Assembly (NCBI RefSeq): GCF_001484685.1
Contig: NZ_CP012200.1
Span: 56,321 to 120,320 of the forward strand
Origin: Thermococcus sp. 2319x1
GTDB lineage: Archaea > Methanobacteriota_B > Thermococci > Thermococcales > Thermococcaceae
DNA: 64,000 nucleotides
Reading direction: 5' to 3'
The notes under the pieces: model-generated
Database searches by the model: none
What the model saw: the letters and a program-made list of their open reading frames with translations, nothing else
What the model was told of the DNA's origin: nothing
Position numbers and translations under genes: made by a program
Shown here: in pieces, positions 2 to 61,112 of the stretch
Numbering within the stretch: the first letter of the stretch is position 1
How the letters are laid out: the number at the start of each line of letters is the position of its first letter

Positions 2-481
2 AGTGCCAGAATTTTGCTTGATAAGTATTACAGGATGGATGACGTTGTTAAGGTAGCAAAAGAAAGACTTGGAGATGAAGCAGAGGTAATTTTGAGGGGA
101 ATTTATGGAGAGAAAGCAATGGGATCAAAAGAAAAGCAGAAGGAGGAGAGGGAGATGGGTTATGTGAAGTTTGATGAATTTGCCAAGCTCGACATAAGAA
201 TCGGGAAGATAATCAGCGTTGAGAATCATCCGAATGCTGACAAGCTCTACGTTGTCAAGGTTGATCTGGGAGACGAGGTTAGGCAACTTGTGGCAGGTTT
301 GAAGGCATACTACAAAAAGGAGGAGCTCCTCAACAAGTACGTTGCAGTTATCACGAATTTGGAGCCAAAGAAGCTTAGGGGAATTGAGAGCCAGGGAATG
401 CTTTTGGCAGCGGATGATGGAGAAACCGTTGCCCTATTAACACCAGAAAAAGAGGTAAAGTTAGGAGCGAAGGTTCGTTAA
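2..481 (+). CDS. metG: Methionyl-tRNA synthetase, C-terminal part (5' end outside window)
   Basis: The frame is open from base 2 and ends with TAA at 479-481. The last ~110 residues are an EMAP/Trbp111-type tRNA-binding OB fold, starting near FDEFAKLDIRIGKI and including PNADKLYVVKVDLG, NLEPKKLRGI and SQGML. In Thermococcales this domain is the C-terminal appendix of MetRS and helps dimerisation and tRNA binding. The preceding residues (ILLDKYYRMDDVVKVAKERL) look like MetRS helical linker, and the frame stays open to the window edge, so I read this as the tail of full MetG and not a free-standing beta subunit starting at the in-frame TTG (14). It converges with the next gene, overlapping it by 4 bases. 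The catalytic domain cannot be seen here. Confidence 0.85.
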   Translation, partial: SARILLDKYYRMDDVVKVAKERLGDEAEVILRGIYGEKAMGSKEKQKEEREMGYVKFDEFAKLDIRIGKIISVENHPNADKLYVVKVDLGDEVRQLVAGLKAYYKKEELLNKYVAVITNLEPKKLRGIESQGMLLAADDGETVALLTPEKEVKLGAKVR

Positions 482-1317
482 GGTTTCAGTTCTACCCAGT
501 TTTCTTTCCTCCCTTTGATTATTCTAACGAGACCTTGTCTTTCGAGGCGCTTGAACATTCTCCATGCCGTGGTCTTTGGTATCCCCAAGGCGGTTCTCAC
601 CTCTGCCTGGCTGGCTCTTCCTCCCTTCTCTAATATGTAGAGTAAAGCCCTCTTTTCGTCTTCATTTAGGTTAAACCTCTCGAGTTTTTTCAAAAACTCT
701 TCCCTGTCTATGTGAAGCTCTTCCTTTGGAGTTTCTTTTTTTCTCCTTTTTATTGCCACAAAGCCGGAAATGGCTGTTATCAAGACCGCTAAAAATGCCA
801 AAACTGGAAAGTAAAAGTCCTTCCTGCCCTCTTCAGCTGCAAATTCAAGGGTATAGGAGATACTCTGGTTTCCCGGGGGCATCGTGATTACATTGGAGGC
901 TATTTTAAGGGGAAGTTCGGATAAATCGACCACAACGGCATTTTCAGGAAGGATGACGTCAAAGGGATATTCCATTGAGACGTTAATAGTCCACACCAAG
1001 CCTTCTTTATACGTCAGATCTGGAGTGTAGTAGGACACATCCACGACTTGAGCATTTTCCACATAAATGATGAGCGATTCATTGTAGACTTCAAAATTAA
1101 GAGGATTGCCGTTTTCATCAACGACCTCCACACCCTCGTAGTTTTTCCCTAAAAGCGGTAGGCCGATTTGGGAGGTGTATTCATCTGGAATCAGCTGGTA
1201 GTGAACTTTAACGTAACCATCCGTGTAGATTGTTAACTCTACCTCTGAAACCGTAAACTGGGCACCGACAACGGGCAGGAGAATGAGAATGCTTATTAGA
1301 GCAAAGGCACGTTTCAC
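478..1317 (-). CDS. Membrane-anchored winged-helix regulator with extracytoplasmic sensor domain
   Basis: 279 residues with a GTG start behind GGGGGGTG. Residues 1-19 form a signal peptide or N-terminal anchor ending VVGA. Residues 20-168 are a beta-rich extracytoplasmic domain with VDENGNPL, YYTPDL and EGLVWTINVS. One membrane helix lies at about 170-189, followed by KRRKK at 190-194 as the cytoplasmic side. Residues 205-279 are a winged helix; the HTH lies near 235-264 (ASQAEVRTALGI, then KTTAWRMFKRLERQGLV). The layout predicts an outside signal passed directly to DNA. Families of this kind are annotated as helix-turn-helix membrane proteins (DUF7343/7345-like), but the ligand is unknown. 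It follows a secreted helical protein by 12 bases, clearly in one operon. A paralogous pair lies at 59.1-60.9 kb, where the sensor lacks the winged helix. Confidence 0.75.
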   Translation of the reverse strand: MKRAFALISILILLPVVGAQFTVSEVELTIYTDGYVKVHYQLIPDEYTSQIGLPLLGKNYEGVEVVDENGNPLNFEVYNESLIIYVENAQVVDVSYYTPDLTYKEGLVWTINVSMEYPFDVILPENAVVVDLSELPLKIASNVITMPPGNQSISYTLEFAAEEGRKDFYFPVLAFLAVLITAISGFVAIKRRKKETPKEELHIDREEFLKKLERFNLNEDEKRALLYILEKGGRASQAEVRTALGIPKTTAWRMFKRLERQGLVRIIKGRKENWVELKP

Positions 1318-1329
1318 TTCTGCACCCCC

Positions 1330-2475
1330 CTAAGAGTTGGCCTTTATAAATTCCTCCACCTCTGCGAGAAGCTTTTCAGCCCTCTGGATATGGACGACGG
1401 CATTGCTGATATCGTTGCGTTTTAATGAAATAATCGCTACAGAAAGCTCATTGACGGCTCCTTTGAGCTGCGCCTCAGCTCTTGCTGTATTTATTCCTTT
1501 CTTCTTTAAAATTGCAATTGCGGTTGTATCCTTTTTTATCCTCTCTCTCAGCTCTTCTAGGGTTTCTTTTATGTTCATGCTCTCTCTTCTAACTCTTTCT
1601 ATCATTCCAAGGAACTTCTGTATTTGGTGGGAATTCTCTCTGATTATCCCTAATGCCTCAATCCATTTTCCTTCTTTTGCTAAGCTTTCGACCTTTATGT
1701 AGATGTTTTTTATCCTCTCTATGCTCTGCTCGGCCTCTTCCACGTTCATACCTCTTGTTTTTGCGTTTTTTACCATTACCTCAGCAACTGCAATACTCTG
1801 GTTGGTCTTTACCAAGAAAGAATTAACGATCCTTTCAGCATTCCTCGAAGCGAGTTCTCTGAGCACTTTTTCTAGTTCTCTATTGAGTTCGGCCCTTTTC
1901 ATTCTGGCAATTTCCATGTTTCTTTTCGCATCTTCTATCTTCTTTGCTTTTAAAGCTTCGAAGACAGTTCTATAAGCATCTTTGGTCTCCTTGTAAGCTT
2001 TTATCAGCTTGTCCGTGTTAACTCCTTCCTTTTCAGCCACTTTTATTACCTTTTCTACGTAGGAGAAATACGCAATGACCCTTTCAGCTTCCTCATTCAA
2101 CTGCTCTCTCAACATTTCTGTACTTTCTGTTTCTTTCAATTCCCTGAGAACTTCTCTATAGTATTTCATAGCCAATAGGGCATCCTGGATTGCATTTTGA
2201 TACTCTCCATTCTGATATTCCAGAGAAGCTTTTTCTTTGAGGTTTTCGGCTTTTTTATAGTTCTCTAAGGTATTCTGGGGCAGTTCGTTCTTTATGGGTC
2301 TTATCCTTGATTCTACAAATTCGCCGAGTTTGGTTAGCTGTGCTATTAGCTCTCCTGCCATACTCTCGTTGCTCTGCTCCTCCAGATATTGGCCGTTGCT
2401 TTGGTTTTGGGCAATGCTAATAGGGATTAGTCCGCCTATTAAAACAAGGATAACCCCAAGGGCACTAAACTTCAT
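1330..2475 (-). CDS. Secreted alpha-helical (coiled-coil) protein, partner of the membrane regulator
   Basis: 381 residues. I chose the ATG at 2475 because GGTGAGAGTG lies just upstream; an in-frame GTG four codons earlier is possible. A signal peptide (hydrophobic GVILVLIGGLIPISIAQ) is followed by about 350 residues of charged, heptad-like helix rich in Glu, Lys, Ala and Arg, with no enzyme motif. Internal repeats are suggested by recurring helical hairpins around EKVIKVAEKEGVNTDKL, EVMVKNAKTRGMNVEE and TAIAILKKKGINTARAE, each ending in a G(V/M/I)(N/D) turn. It is the first gene of a two-gene operon with the winged-helix sensor and has a clear paralogue at 59740-60942. An extracytoplasmic adaptor or sensing partner is an inference. 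I do not recognise a characterised family. Confidence 0.7.
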   Translation of the reverse strand: MKFSALGVILVLIGGLIPISIAQNQSNGQYLEEQSNESMAGELIAQLTKLGEFVESRIRPIKNELPQNTLENYKKAENLKEKASLEYQNGEYQNAIQDALLAMKYYREVLRELKETESTEMLREQLNEEAERVIAYFSYVEKVIKVAEKEGVNTDKLIKAYKETKDAYRTVFEALKAKKIEDAKRNMEIARMKRAELNRELEKVLRELASRNAERIVNSFLVKTNQSIAVAEVMVKNAKTRGMNVEEAEQSIERIKNIYIKVESLAKEGKWIEALGIIRENSHQIQKFLGMIERVRRESMNIKETLEELRERIKKDTTAIAILKKKGINTARAEAQLKGAVNELSVAIISLKRNDISNAVVHIQRAEKLLAEVEEFIKANS

Positions 2476-2643
2476 CACTCTCACCATCGTTAATATGATC
2501 TTGACCTAAAACGAAGGTTTCGAGTGTTCCAAAGCTCTTTTTAATTATGGGGGAGATGAAATCGACGGGATAACCAATCATGAAAAAAGTTCGCAAAATC
2601 ACTTTAAATCTCTTTTTCCCCTAAAAAAGTTAATAACAAAGAC

Positions 2644-57998: not shown

Positions 57999-58799
57999 TT
58001 ACTTTTTCCATGCCCGCCATATTAAGTTTGCCCCATCTGTGGACTCCATTAGCCCCTCGGCAACCATATCCACTATAAAGTCTATCATGGCATTCTTGTC
58101 AATCCTTGCAGGCTTTTCAAAGCCGAAAAAGTACTTTGCCTCAAAGAACCCAATGTGAAGAAACCTTAGGGGATTTAAAAGTGCCACATCCTCAGTAAAC
58201 TTCAAATCGAATGGAAAATCTGCAATGACGAGCTTAATCCCCCTTTCTTTGGCAATATCTTTCAGCTTTTCCTCATCTGGGTAAAATAACTCCCTAAGGG
58301 AGCCGTCTATTGGCTCATAGCTTATTTTCGGAAAGGTGTACTTGATGCCTACCTTTTCAGCCTTCAGCCCCAATTTTTCGGCAAAGCCTATCATGGCCTT
58401 TGCATTGAAGCTGAGAAAAACAAGGGCTCTCTCATCTATTCTTAACTCGGGCCACTTTCGGGGGGGAAATTTGAACTCTGCCTCGATTATTGGTCCCAAA
58501 AATTCCAAAAAAGTTCCTCTAATCCTTTCCAAATTTTTTTCGAGCTTTTTCTGCTTTATAAGCAGGTCAAGCTTTGAATATACTGTAACTTGCTTCACAC
58601 CGAGTTCTTCTCTAAGCTTTCCGATTACAAAGCTGTTCCCGATTATTGCACTTTTATCGCTTCTATCTCTGGCTATTATAAACAGCTTATCTTCTTCCCT
58701 GTCGTATCTGATTTCATCTATTACAAATGGCACTAAGGGAAAACCGTTTTCTTTTCTTATTCTGTTAACCTTCTCACTTATCTCTTCTTTTGTAAGCAT
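57999..58799 (-). CDS. Conserved hypothetical protein, ~30 kDa
   Basis: 266 residues, ATG 58799 behind AAGGTGAGC; the start shares bases with the upstream stop (TGATG). Contains FVIDEIRYDREEDKLFIIARD, KQVTVYSKLDLLIKQKKLEK and LVIADFPFDLKFTEDVALL. Soluble alpha/beta protein with possible nucleotide- or RNA-binding surface (basic patches) but no motif I can name. Conserved-looking operon with the following kinase-like gene. Confidence 0.6.
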   Translation of the reverse strand: MLTKEEISEKVNRIRKENGFPLVPFVIDEIRYDREEDKLFIIARDRSDKSAIIGNSFVIGKLREELGVKQVTVYSKLDLLIKQKKLEKNLERIRGTFLEFLGPIIEAEFKFPPRKWPELRIDERALVFLSFNAKAMIGFAEKLGLKAEKVGIKYTFPKISYEPIDGSLRELFYPDEEKLKDIAKERGIKLVIADFPFDLKFTEDVALLNPLRFLHIGFFEAKYFFGFEKPARIDKNAMIDFIVDMVAEGLMESTDGANLIWRAWKK

Positions 58800-59047
58800 C
58801 AGCTCACCTTGTACGCCTTGATGCACTCGTAGATTTCCTGGGCAATTTTTAAAGCTTCCTCTCTGTCGTCGGTTTCTTTTACTATAATCTTTCCACTTGG
58901 AAATATGCTTATGTCATATGTCTTTCTAACAAGGGCTAAGAACTTGGTTACCCGCTTTATCTGGTAGCCTTTCTCCGCTAGGCATTCGCAGACCTCCTCT
59001 AAGTCGATATCAAAATTTTCTCGCGGGGTTATGTTTATTGCCTTCAT
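58799..59047 (-). CDS. Small protein with TBP-like strand pattern
   Basis: 82 residues; ATG 59047 is preferred to the in-frame ATG 59074. IDLEEVCECLAEKGYQIKRV, ISIFPSGKIIVKETDDREEA and LKIAQEIYECIKAYK give the strand-turn-strand-helix of TBP repeats and Pcc1-like proteins (compare [13 protein letters not shown] in TBP), but only one repeat. Function unknown. First gene of the operon with the next two. Confidence 0.6.
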   Translation of the reverse strand: MKAINITPRENFDIDLEEVCECLAEKGYQIKRVTKFLALVRKTYDISIFPSGKIIVKETDDREEALKIAQEIYECIKAYKVS

Positions 59048-59138
59048 GCTTGTACACGGCCTTGCAACCAGCATGGAACCACCAACCAGAATTTATGAAC
59101 CGTACTTCATAAAATTTATTGGAAGAAAAGCCCGAGCA

Positions 59139-59711
59139 TCATCGCTTCCAGATGGCAAACCCCAAAATTGAGACCAGCAAAAGCGCCCCTAGTGAAAGGA
59201 TAATTTTTGTTGAGATGCCATTTTCTTTTGCGGGACTTTTAGTGTCTGTTCCCTCTTCAAGGGTGAAACTTACTTCAATTTCTCCCGCTGGAAGTGTTAT
59301 TTTATTGCCCTCAACTTCAAGGGGGACATCGCTCATATCCACCAAGCTTGCTTCCTCCGGCAGTATAACGCTCACCGGATTGTCTGAGCTCAATGAGATA
59401 GTCCAAACAAGGCCTTCCTGCTTAATCAAGTCTGGAGTAGTATAGGTTATCTCCACTATCTGGGCATCTTGAGTGTTCACTGTTATCTCGTTTCCGTTTA
59501 TGTAATATTCAAGGGGATTACCGTTTTCATCGGTAACAAAGACGTCCTCGTAATGATCACCAATCAAAGATAACGTAACCTGCGTTGCATAATCATCAAC
59601 GGGCACTTCAATTTCTACAGTTGCGTATCCGTCTCCGTAGGGGGTTATGTTTATGCTCCGTGCACTTACAAAGGGAATAAAAAGCAAGAAGGCAAGCAAA
59701 GCCTTTTTCAT
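59139..59711 (-). CDS. Membrane-anchored extracytoplasmic sensor domain, no winged helix (paralogue)
   Basis: 190 residues, ATG 59711 behind GGAGGTGG. Signal peptide KKALLAFLLFIPFVSA; ectodomain with TDENGNPL, TYTTPDL, EGLVWTISLS, VILPEEASLVDMSDVPL; one C-terminal helix (IILSLGALLLVSILGFAIW) then KR and stop. Aligns with residues 1-192 of the 478-1317 protein but stops right after the membrane helix, so the winged helix is absent. Paired with the secreted helical protein upstream (28 bases). Whether the C-terminus was lost or never present cannot be told. Confidence 0.7.
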   Translation of the reverse strand: MKKALLAFLLFIPFVSARSINITPYGDGYATVEIEVPVDDYATQVTLSLIGDHYEDVFVTDENGNPLEYYINGNEITVNTQDAQIVEITYTTPDLIKQEGLVWTISLSSDNPVSVILPEEASLVDMSDVPLEVEGNKITLPAGEIEVSFTLEEGTDTKSPAKENGISTKIILSLGALLLVSILGFAIWKR

Positions 59712-59739
59712 ACTTTCCACCTCCATAAAAAATTGGAAA

Positions 59740-60942
59740 TCAGAGGTGCCTCAAGATGAACTCATCCACTCTATGGAGCATTTCTAGGGCGATTGCAAAG
59801 TGCATCTTTGCTTCCGCTGGCTTCTTGTGTTTTAGGAGCTCGATTCCAAGTCTTATCTCTTGTATTGAAGTTTTAAGCTGTAGCTCCGCCTTTCTTGTAT
59901 CTACTCCTTTCTTCTTGAGCTCTCTCAAGGCTTTTGCATCCTTCTGAACCCTGTCGTTAATCTCTCTGAGGAATGCTCTCATGTCTCTCATCTTTTCTTG
60001 GGCTTCTCTTTCGTGGAACTTTCTTTGGATAAATGCCATTGCCCTGTGGAATTCTTTTATGGTCTCCGTGTTCTCCCTCATGACTTGAAGGGCTTCGTCG
60101 TATTTTCCTTCATCCGCTAGGGCTTTGACCTCATCGTAGACTTCTCTAAACGCTTCAAGCCTTTCTTGAAGTTCACTTGCATCGTAGCCCTTTTCTTCTG
60201 CCGTCTCAATTACCTTCTCCGCCATCTCTATTCCCCTTGCACCCTTCTCCAAGAACTCATTTACTATCTTGTCAGCGTTTGCCTCTACAAGTTCCCTTCT
60301 TATTCTCCTTAGCTCCTCGTCTAAAGCTGCTTTTTTCTCCCTCGCAACTTCGAGGTCTTCTTTGGCTTTCTCAAAATCTCTGGCTTTTATGTCCTCTAAC
60401 ACAGTCCTGTAAGCCTCTTTAGTTTCTTGTAAAAGCGCTGTTGCATTCTCTACGTCAATCCCCTGTTTTTGAGCCATCTCTATAGTTCTCTCAGCCATTC
60501 TAAAGTAGCCTTCCATCCTTCTTATCTCTTCCGGGAGCCGTTCTCTTAGCTCCTCTTTTCCTCTTTCAAAGTTCTTCAGGACTTCTCTGTAGTGGTGCAT
60601 TGCCGTTAAGCCATTGATTATGGCATTGTAATAGTCGCCGCTTTCATAGGCAGTGAGGGCATCTTCCTTATACTCTTCGGCCAGTTGGTAGTGTCTCATA
60701 ACGCTTGAGTTATCTGGCAGGTTTATGTTGTTAATTAGTCTTGTTGTTATATTGCTTAATCTTTCGAGGGCTGCAACGATATGTTCGGCTATCCTTTCCT
60801 CCTGCGTTATGTTTTGTATTTCCGGTGGCAAAGGCTCTGTTTCATTTTCTATTGTGGCGTTCTCATCTGCTAGGCTCAAGCCCGCTGGTATTATGCTCCC
60901 CACCAACAGGCCTATTAACACCCAGACCTTCAACCACTTCAT
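59740..60942 (-). CDS. Secreted alpha-helical (coiled-coil) protein, paralogue 2
   Basis: 400 residues, ATG 60942 behind GGTGAT. Signal peptide VWVLIGLLVGSIIPAGLSLA. Then helical throughout: YREVLKNFERGKEELRERL, MAEKVIETAEEKGYDASELQ, DAKALRELKKKGVDTRKAE. Same lengths of hairpin and same turns (GVD, GYD, GID) as the 1330-2475 protein, plus ALRELKKKGVDT versus AIAILKKKGINT. Also matched: LRRIRRELVEANADKIVNEFL versus LEKVLRELASRNAERIVNSFL, shown as the shared IVN(E/S)FL. First gene of the pair; a 16-bp palindrome lies upstream. Confidence 0.7.
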   Translation of the reverse strand: MKWLKVWVLIGLLVGSIIPAGLSLADENATIENETEPLPPEIQNITQEERIAEHIVAALERLSNITTRLINNINLPDNSSVMRHYQLAEEYKEDALTAYESGDYYNAIINGLTAMHHYREVLKNFERGKEELRERLPEEIRRMEGYFRMAERTIEMAQKQGIDVENATALLQETKEAYRTVLEDIKARDFEKAKEDLEVAREKKAALDEELRRIRRELVEANADKIVNEFLEKGARGIEMAEKVIETAEEKGYDASELQERLEAFREVYDEVKALADEGKYDEALQVMRENTETIKEFHRAMAFIQRKFHEREAQEKMRDMRAFLREINDRVQKDAKALRELKKKGVDTRKAELQLKTSIQEIRLGIELLKHKKPAEAKMHFAIALEMLHRVDEFILRHL

Positions 60943-60997
60943 GTTCATCACCATTCCTAACTGGGGCTTTTACCTATTTTAGGAATCCGGTGAAAAG

Positions 60998-61013
60998 AAC
61001 GTTCCGGAACGTT
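60998..61013 (-). promoter_or_regulatory. 16-bp perfect palindrome upstream of the second sensor cassette
   Basis: AACGTTCCGGAACGTT is self-complementary and lies 55 bases before the chosen start of the secreted helical protein, upstream of the expected TATA position. No identical copy was found upstream of the first cassette, which has only partly similar bases (TTTGGAACACTCG). Confidence 0.5.
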
Positions 61014-61112
61014 TCATTTTTTGTGTAAACTTCCATAAACAGCTTTCTACACATACAACCCATTAAAAATTATGGAAATCTGCATGTGAACGATGAGAAA
61101 CTGTATTTTGGA

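Follow-up and report, generated by a model that had tools for sequence, protein, structure and literature searches.

A Conserved Headless Paralog of a Membrane-Bound Regulator Cassette in Thermococcaceae

Thermococcus sp. 2319x1 carries two paralogous cassettes within the window (the whole 64,000-nucleotide stretch of DNA that was analyzed): one encodes a complete membrane-bound regulator, and the other encodes a "headless" sensor that lacks the DNA-binding domain. Comparison with related genomes shows that the headless cassette, as judged from its sequence, belongs to a family of membrane-bound one-component regulators in the Thermococci, within which it is an old and conserved paralogous cassette, and the gene trees show a pattern of a single loss of the wHTH, in an ancestor. 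The headless copy is thus a lasting part of the pathway, kept long after one ancient loss, and not a recent accident. The role that we favor for it, to which we give an even chance, is that of an envelope output, in which a secreted helical protein and a membrane-anchored ectodomain would be under the control of the regulator.

Results

The Headless Sensor Ends Directly after Its Membrane Helix

The two cassettes comprise the following genes:

59139–59726, minus strand: headless sensor, with a signal-like N-terminal helix, an extracytoplasmic β-sandwich domain, one membrane helix, and a KR tail, and without a wHTH
59740–60954, minus strand: partner of the headless sensor, 404 aa, with an N-terminal signal-like stretch and then all helical
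478–1317, minus strand: complete paralog, with the same ectodomain as the headless sensor, a membrane helix, and a cytoplasmic wHTH
1330–2487, minus strand: partner of the complete regulator, a paralog of 59740–60954

The open reading frame at 59139–59726 encodes 195 aa and has the C terminus LVSILGFAIWKR (...GFAIWKR, then the stop). Its true start is probably M6, at position 59711, because relatives begin there and because GGAGGTG precedes M6. A membrane helix is predicted at residues 178–194, where the hydrophobic 19-mer IILSLGALLLVSILGFAIW has a mean hydropathy of 2.5. The preliminary description placed the end of the sensor three residues past this helix; the protein does end right after the helix, but just two residues (KR) follow the best 19-residue hydrophobic stretch. 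No DNA-binding domain was found in the headless sensor with Pfam or with an HMM of the family wHTH, and a search of up to 2 kb downstream of the gene found no wHTH relic, which led us to reject a broken frame or a hidden downstream wHTH at this locus.

The wHTH of the complete paralog matches both TrmB (PF01978, 7.8e-10) and DUF7343 (PF24034, 9.6e-7) above the Pfam cut-offs, so the contrast drawn earlier between a sensor without a DNA-binding domain and a full regulator at 478–1317 was borne out. The likeness to TrmB-type proteins is confined to the HTH: the full-length NCBIfam model for TrmBL1 scored 20.2 bits, below its cut-off of 650, and matched the HTH region alone, and the complete paralog is not a full-length TrmBL1-type protein, in which an HTH is combined with a sugar-binding domain.

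This genome has no sensors besides these two. They are 40% identical over 198 columns (E 1e-45), in an alignment that reaches the membrane helix, and the two partners are 36% identical and align along their entire length, in agreement with the earlier observation that the gene order recurs. The partner gene at 59740–60954 lies upstream of the headless gene in the same orientation with a 14 bp gap, and the two would form an operon. We defined the cassette class as a helical partner directly upstream of a gene for an ectodomain with a membrane helix, and 59139–60954 has this layout. Among the 83 partner genes identified, 58 are followed by a complete sensor and 14 by a headless one, while 11 have no sensor gene beside them; the partner can therefore be kept without a sensor.

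Structure models of the headless sensor and its partner were built from four-row alignments, and being of moderate quality they serve as leads only. The headless model consists of a β-sandwich ectodomain and a C-terminal membrane helix (pLDDT 67), and that of the partner is helical throughout (pLDDT 77). The best Foldseek matches of the headless ectodomain were the lumenal domain of Ost1/ribophorin I and the N-domains of M1 aminopeptidases, with 8agb_E at the top (E 5.5e-4, prob 1.00). The TM-score is 0.42, with an rmsd above 13 Å and a model pLDDT of 67, so that the match is a lead to the fold and we claim no common function.

Of 43 columns that do not vary among complete regulators, the headless ectodomain retains 26. 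The motif PPGNQSxSY is near-invariant before the membrane helix of complete regulators (N in 100%, Q in 94%, and S in 90% of 62): N-Q-S is present in 55 of 65 class-1 complete sensors, and N-x-S/T in 13 of 15 class-2 sensors, and NQS is missing from all headless forms. In 478–1317 the motif reads PPGNQSISY, and its N-x-S/T looks like a glycosylation sequon.

The Short Form Is Old and Has Been Maintained

We found headless orthologs in 14 of 94 Thermococcaceae genomes, belonging to four genera. Identity to the copy described here is 88% and about 70% within the genus, 75% in two g3 genomes, and 45–46% in the distant g2 and g4 genomes. The preliminary description would have been undone by relatives carrying a wHTH at this cassette, and every ortholog proved to be headless; the short form is conserved. 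Eleven of the 13 closed headless copies end in WKR, and the other two end no more than 4–5 residues past the hydrophobic stretch. A recent truncation was rejected, as the orthologs are headless in four genera, form one clade, and carry no wHTH relic.

Headless and solo partners form one clade in the partner tree (100*), and so do the 13 headless rows when the sensor tree is built from the ectodomain alone (98*). Because the outgroup families f2 and f4 of the class consist of a partner and a full-length sensor with a wHTH, the complete form is ancestral. The whole membrane protein was later lost at least twice in the headless lineage (once in G003 with G015, and once in nine g4 genomes), and the lone partner in G003 retains the same neighbor genes. 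Between the headless copies of two g3 genomes (L068 and L069, in G011 and G007) dS is 0.06, but it has reached saturation between their complete sensors, suggesting lateral transfer of the headless cassette into these genomes.

Pairwise dN/dS values among headless sensors range from 0.12 to 0.36, indicating purifying selection. The values for the ectodomain of complete sensors are 0.05–0.20, so that selection on the headless form is mostly weaker.

The Two Cassettes Share a Promoter Element

One further feature lies upstream of the headless cassette, outside the interval that the preliminary description had covered:

60975–61016, minus strand: 42-bp promoter element, with GRAACG half-sites, a 7-nt spacer, and then the TATA-like stretch CCTAAAATA

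The element contains a perfect 16-bp palindrome, AACGTTCCGGAACGTT, at 60998–61013, and its consensus across cassettes is TGGAACGnTnTGAAACGTTCGTTTCACCGGGTTCCTAAAATA. When matches were scored on 37 informative positions with a threshold of at least 29, the element was found before 55 of 58 complete cassettes, all 14 headless cassettes, and 2 of 11 solo partners. The copy before the headless cassette matches at 36 of 37 positions (49.4 bits) and is the best match in the genome; in a genome-wide scan with the element model it was the sole strong site, and the regulon was therefore read from relatives. A spacing of 7 nt separates the dyad from the TATA-like stretch in all 14 headless promoters and in 53 of the 58 complete ones. 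In seven of nine g4 solo promoters (G019, G020, G024, G028, G030, G068, and G070) the distance is 18–19 nt, about one helical turn more, and the genomes with this spacing mostly lack a class-1 regulator.

In relatives, the element also precedes genes for a LamG/ConA-like lectin membrane protein, a 110-aa orphan family, and DUF257 (two genomes), and in single cases a PMT_2 transferase, a GH39 protein, and an ABC transporter; these other element-bearing genes are often of envelope type (the lectin, the PMT_2 transferase, and the GH39 protein). The lectin proteins preceded by the element come from five genomes (L228, L229, L231, L233, and L237), and several adjoin MsrA; L231, L233, and L237 have a LamG/ConA-like Pfam match, and L228 and L229 were assigned by position and likeness.

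From the position of the element and its co-occurrence with the cassettes, we infer that it is bound by the regulator family's own wHTH. The element also occurs in genomes that have no class-1 complete regulator, G070 and G009 among them, and other paralogs may therefore bind it as well. TFB-RF1 is an archaeal activator that recruits TFB at weak BREs (PMC5937170); by analogy, the element, just upstream of a weak TATA region, sits where an activator like TFB-RF1 would act.

Headless and Complete Cassettes Are Kept and Lost Together

Nine same-genus genomes are more than 90% complete; both cassettes are present in seven of them and absent from the other two, G074 and G077. These two are not sisters in a tree of seven neighboring genes, which indicates that both cassettes were lost together twice, independently; in G077 the site expected for the cassette is a clean junction, about 124 bp long. 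A complete regulator accompanies the headless sensor in 13 of 14 genomes, the exception being a MAG that is 79% complete, and in the whole family no genome more than 90% complete has the headless form without it. The common 42-bp element and this pattern of co-presence and co-loss support the view that the two cassettes belong to one shared pathway, as far as genome comparison can tell. The link that the preliminary description had proposed to the regulator at 478–1317 thus stands, but it fits a headless output and a headless modulator equally, and beyond the link the titrating or dominant-negative part of that claim found no support.

In this genome the promoter of the complete cassette is damaged:

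2503–2535, minus strand: operator remnant with a 16-nt deletion, whose junction lies between 2508 and 2509

The deletion removes the TATA-like stretch that is kept in five same-genus relatives, and expression of the complete regulator may be poor in this genome. Lesions in the complete cassette are also present in G084, where the partner is frameshifted, and in G083, a fragmented MAG, where both partner and sensor are; the headless cassettes are intact in all three genomes (this one, G000, included). The 110-aa orphan gene is a fragment with stops in this genome (L260, G000:C1:281832-282011), and the copies in same-genus relatives carry the element; the fragment is perhaps another sign of the circuit eroding here.

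Discussion

We propose that the complete regulator, and perhaps also its paralogs, would recognize the GRAACG repeats that immediately precede the TATA-like stretch. It would thereby control a few envelope genes as well as both its own cassette and the headless one. On this view the headless cassette would be mainly an output of the regulator system: the partner would act on the cell surface, while the headless protein, as its anchor in the membrane or its receptor, would produce no transcriptional output. After the single wHTH loss, some descendants went on to lose the membrane protein too, leaving the partner alone. We favor the output reading because NQS has been lost, because the partner was duplicated with the sensor and outlives it, and because the headless cassette is intact where the complete one is damaged. 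It is possible that the headless protein also modulates the complete regulator as a side effect, through competition for the partner or a ligand.

Titration or dominant-negative action was among the roles proposed initially. The headless protein would pair with the complete regulator, or soak up the partner or ligand at the membrane, and with the same operator before both cassettes this would give negative feedback. The shared promoter element, the constant company of a complete regulator in genomes more than 90% complete with two joint losses, and the 26 retained invariant columns all fit such a role, which we regard as a tentative possibility. The ectodomains, however, are just 40% identical, and NQS, present in most complete sensors, is gone from every headless form; the headless sensor was duplicated with a partner gene of its own, which survives as a solo gene in sister lineages that have lost the membrane protein; and headless cassettes are intact in the three genomes with lesions in the complete one, among them the present genome with its damaged promoter. 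These points speak against a titrating pair. A related idea, in which an operator-linked, ectodomain-only paralog has been retained as a feedback modulator, so that the regulator drives its own headless antagonist and the two compete outside the cell for the secreted partner, seems to us about as tentative a possibility.

It is doubtful that the headless sensor is a decaying leftover, a duplicate being slowly retired, first by loss of the wHTH and then by loss of the membrane protein altogether, so that little besides the partner would still be functional. The stepwise pattern of loss and dN/dS values about two to four times those of the complete ectodomain in several pairs are what decay would produce, but dN/dS is well below 1 in every pair, an open frame with the same KR ending is common to 11 genomes of two genera, the promoter element is intact in 14/14, and the cassette has apparently been transferred into two g3 genomes. 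Nor do we think there is any real likelihood that a DNA-binding part is supplied in trans by the gene downstream of the cassette (58799–59074), which encodes a single TBP-half-domain protein of 91 aa with paralogs in many Thermococcaceae genomes. This gene is adjacent and on the same strand in g1 genomes and G001, and it has a weak similarity to TBP (Pfam 8.1e-5, just under the cut-off). Synteny largely refutes the idea: the gene is found at this position even in G074 and G077, where there is no cassette, it is widespread elsewhere, and it is absent beside the g3 and g4 headless cassettes.

One lineage offers a natural series (complete regulator, headless regulator, and partner alone) under one recognizable promoter element. 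What the DNA-binding part, the ectodomain, and the partner each do can therefore be tested separately in the genetically tractable Thermococcales. Searching the literature for DUF7343/DUF7345 and for GAAACG-motif regulators of the Thermococcales, we found nothing on this cassette family. Transmembrane transcription regulators (TTRs) include ToxR, TcpP, CadC, and the archaeal ArnR (PMC10269533). The complete paralog likewise has its predicted DNA-binding domain in the same protein as one membrane helix and an extracytoplasmic domain. The headless protein has a predicted membrane helix but no DNA-binding domain in the same protein, and so is not itself a TTR. Like ToxR with ToxS, the complete paralog has a second protein encoded beside it, a likeness of layout. 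Unlike in the TTRs, the wHTH of the Thermococcaceae cassette is at the C terminus and the partner gene is upstream. The cassette is a variant of membrane-bound one-component regulation with an associated protein.
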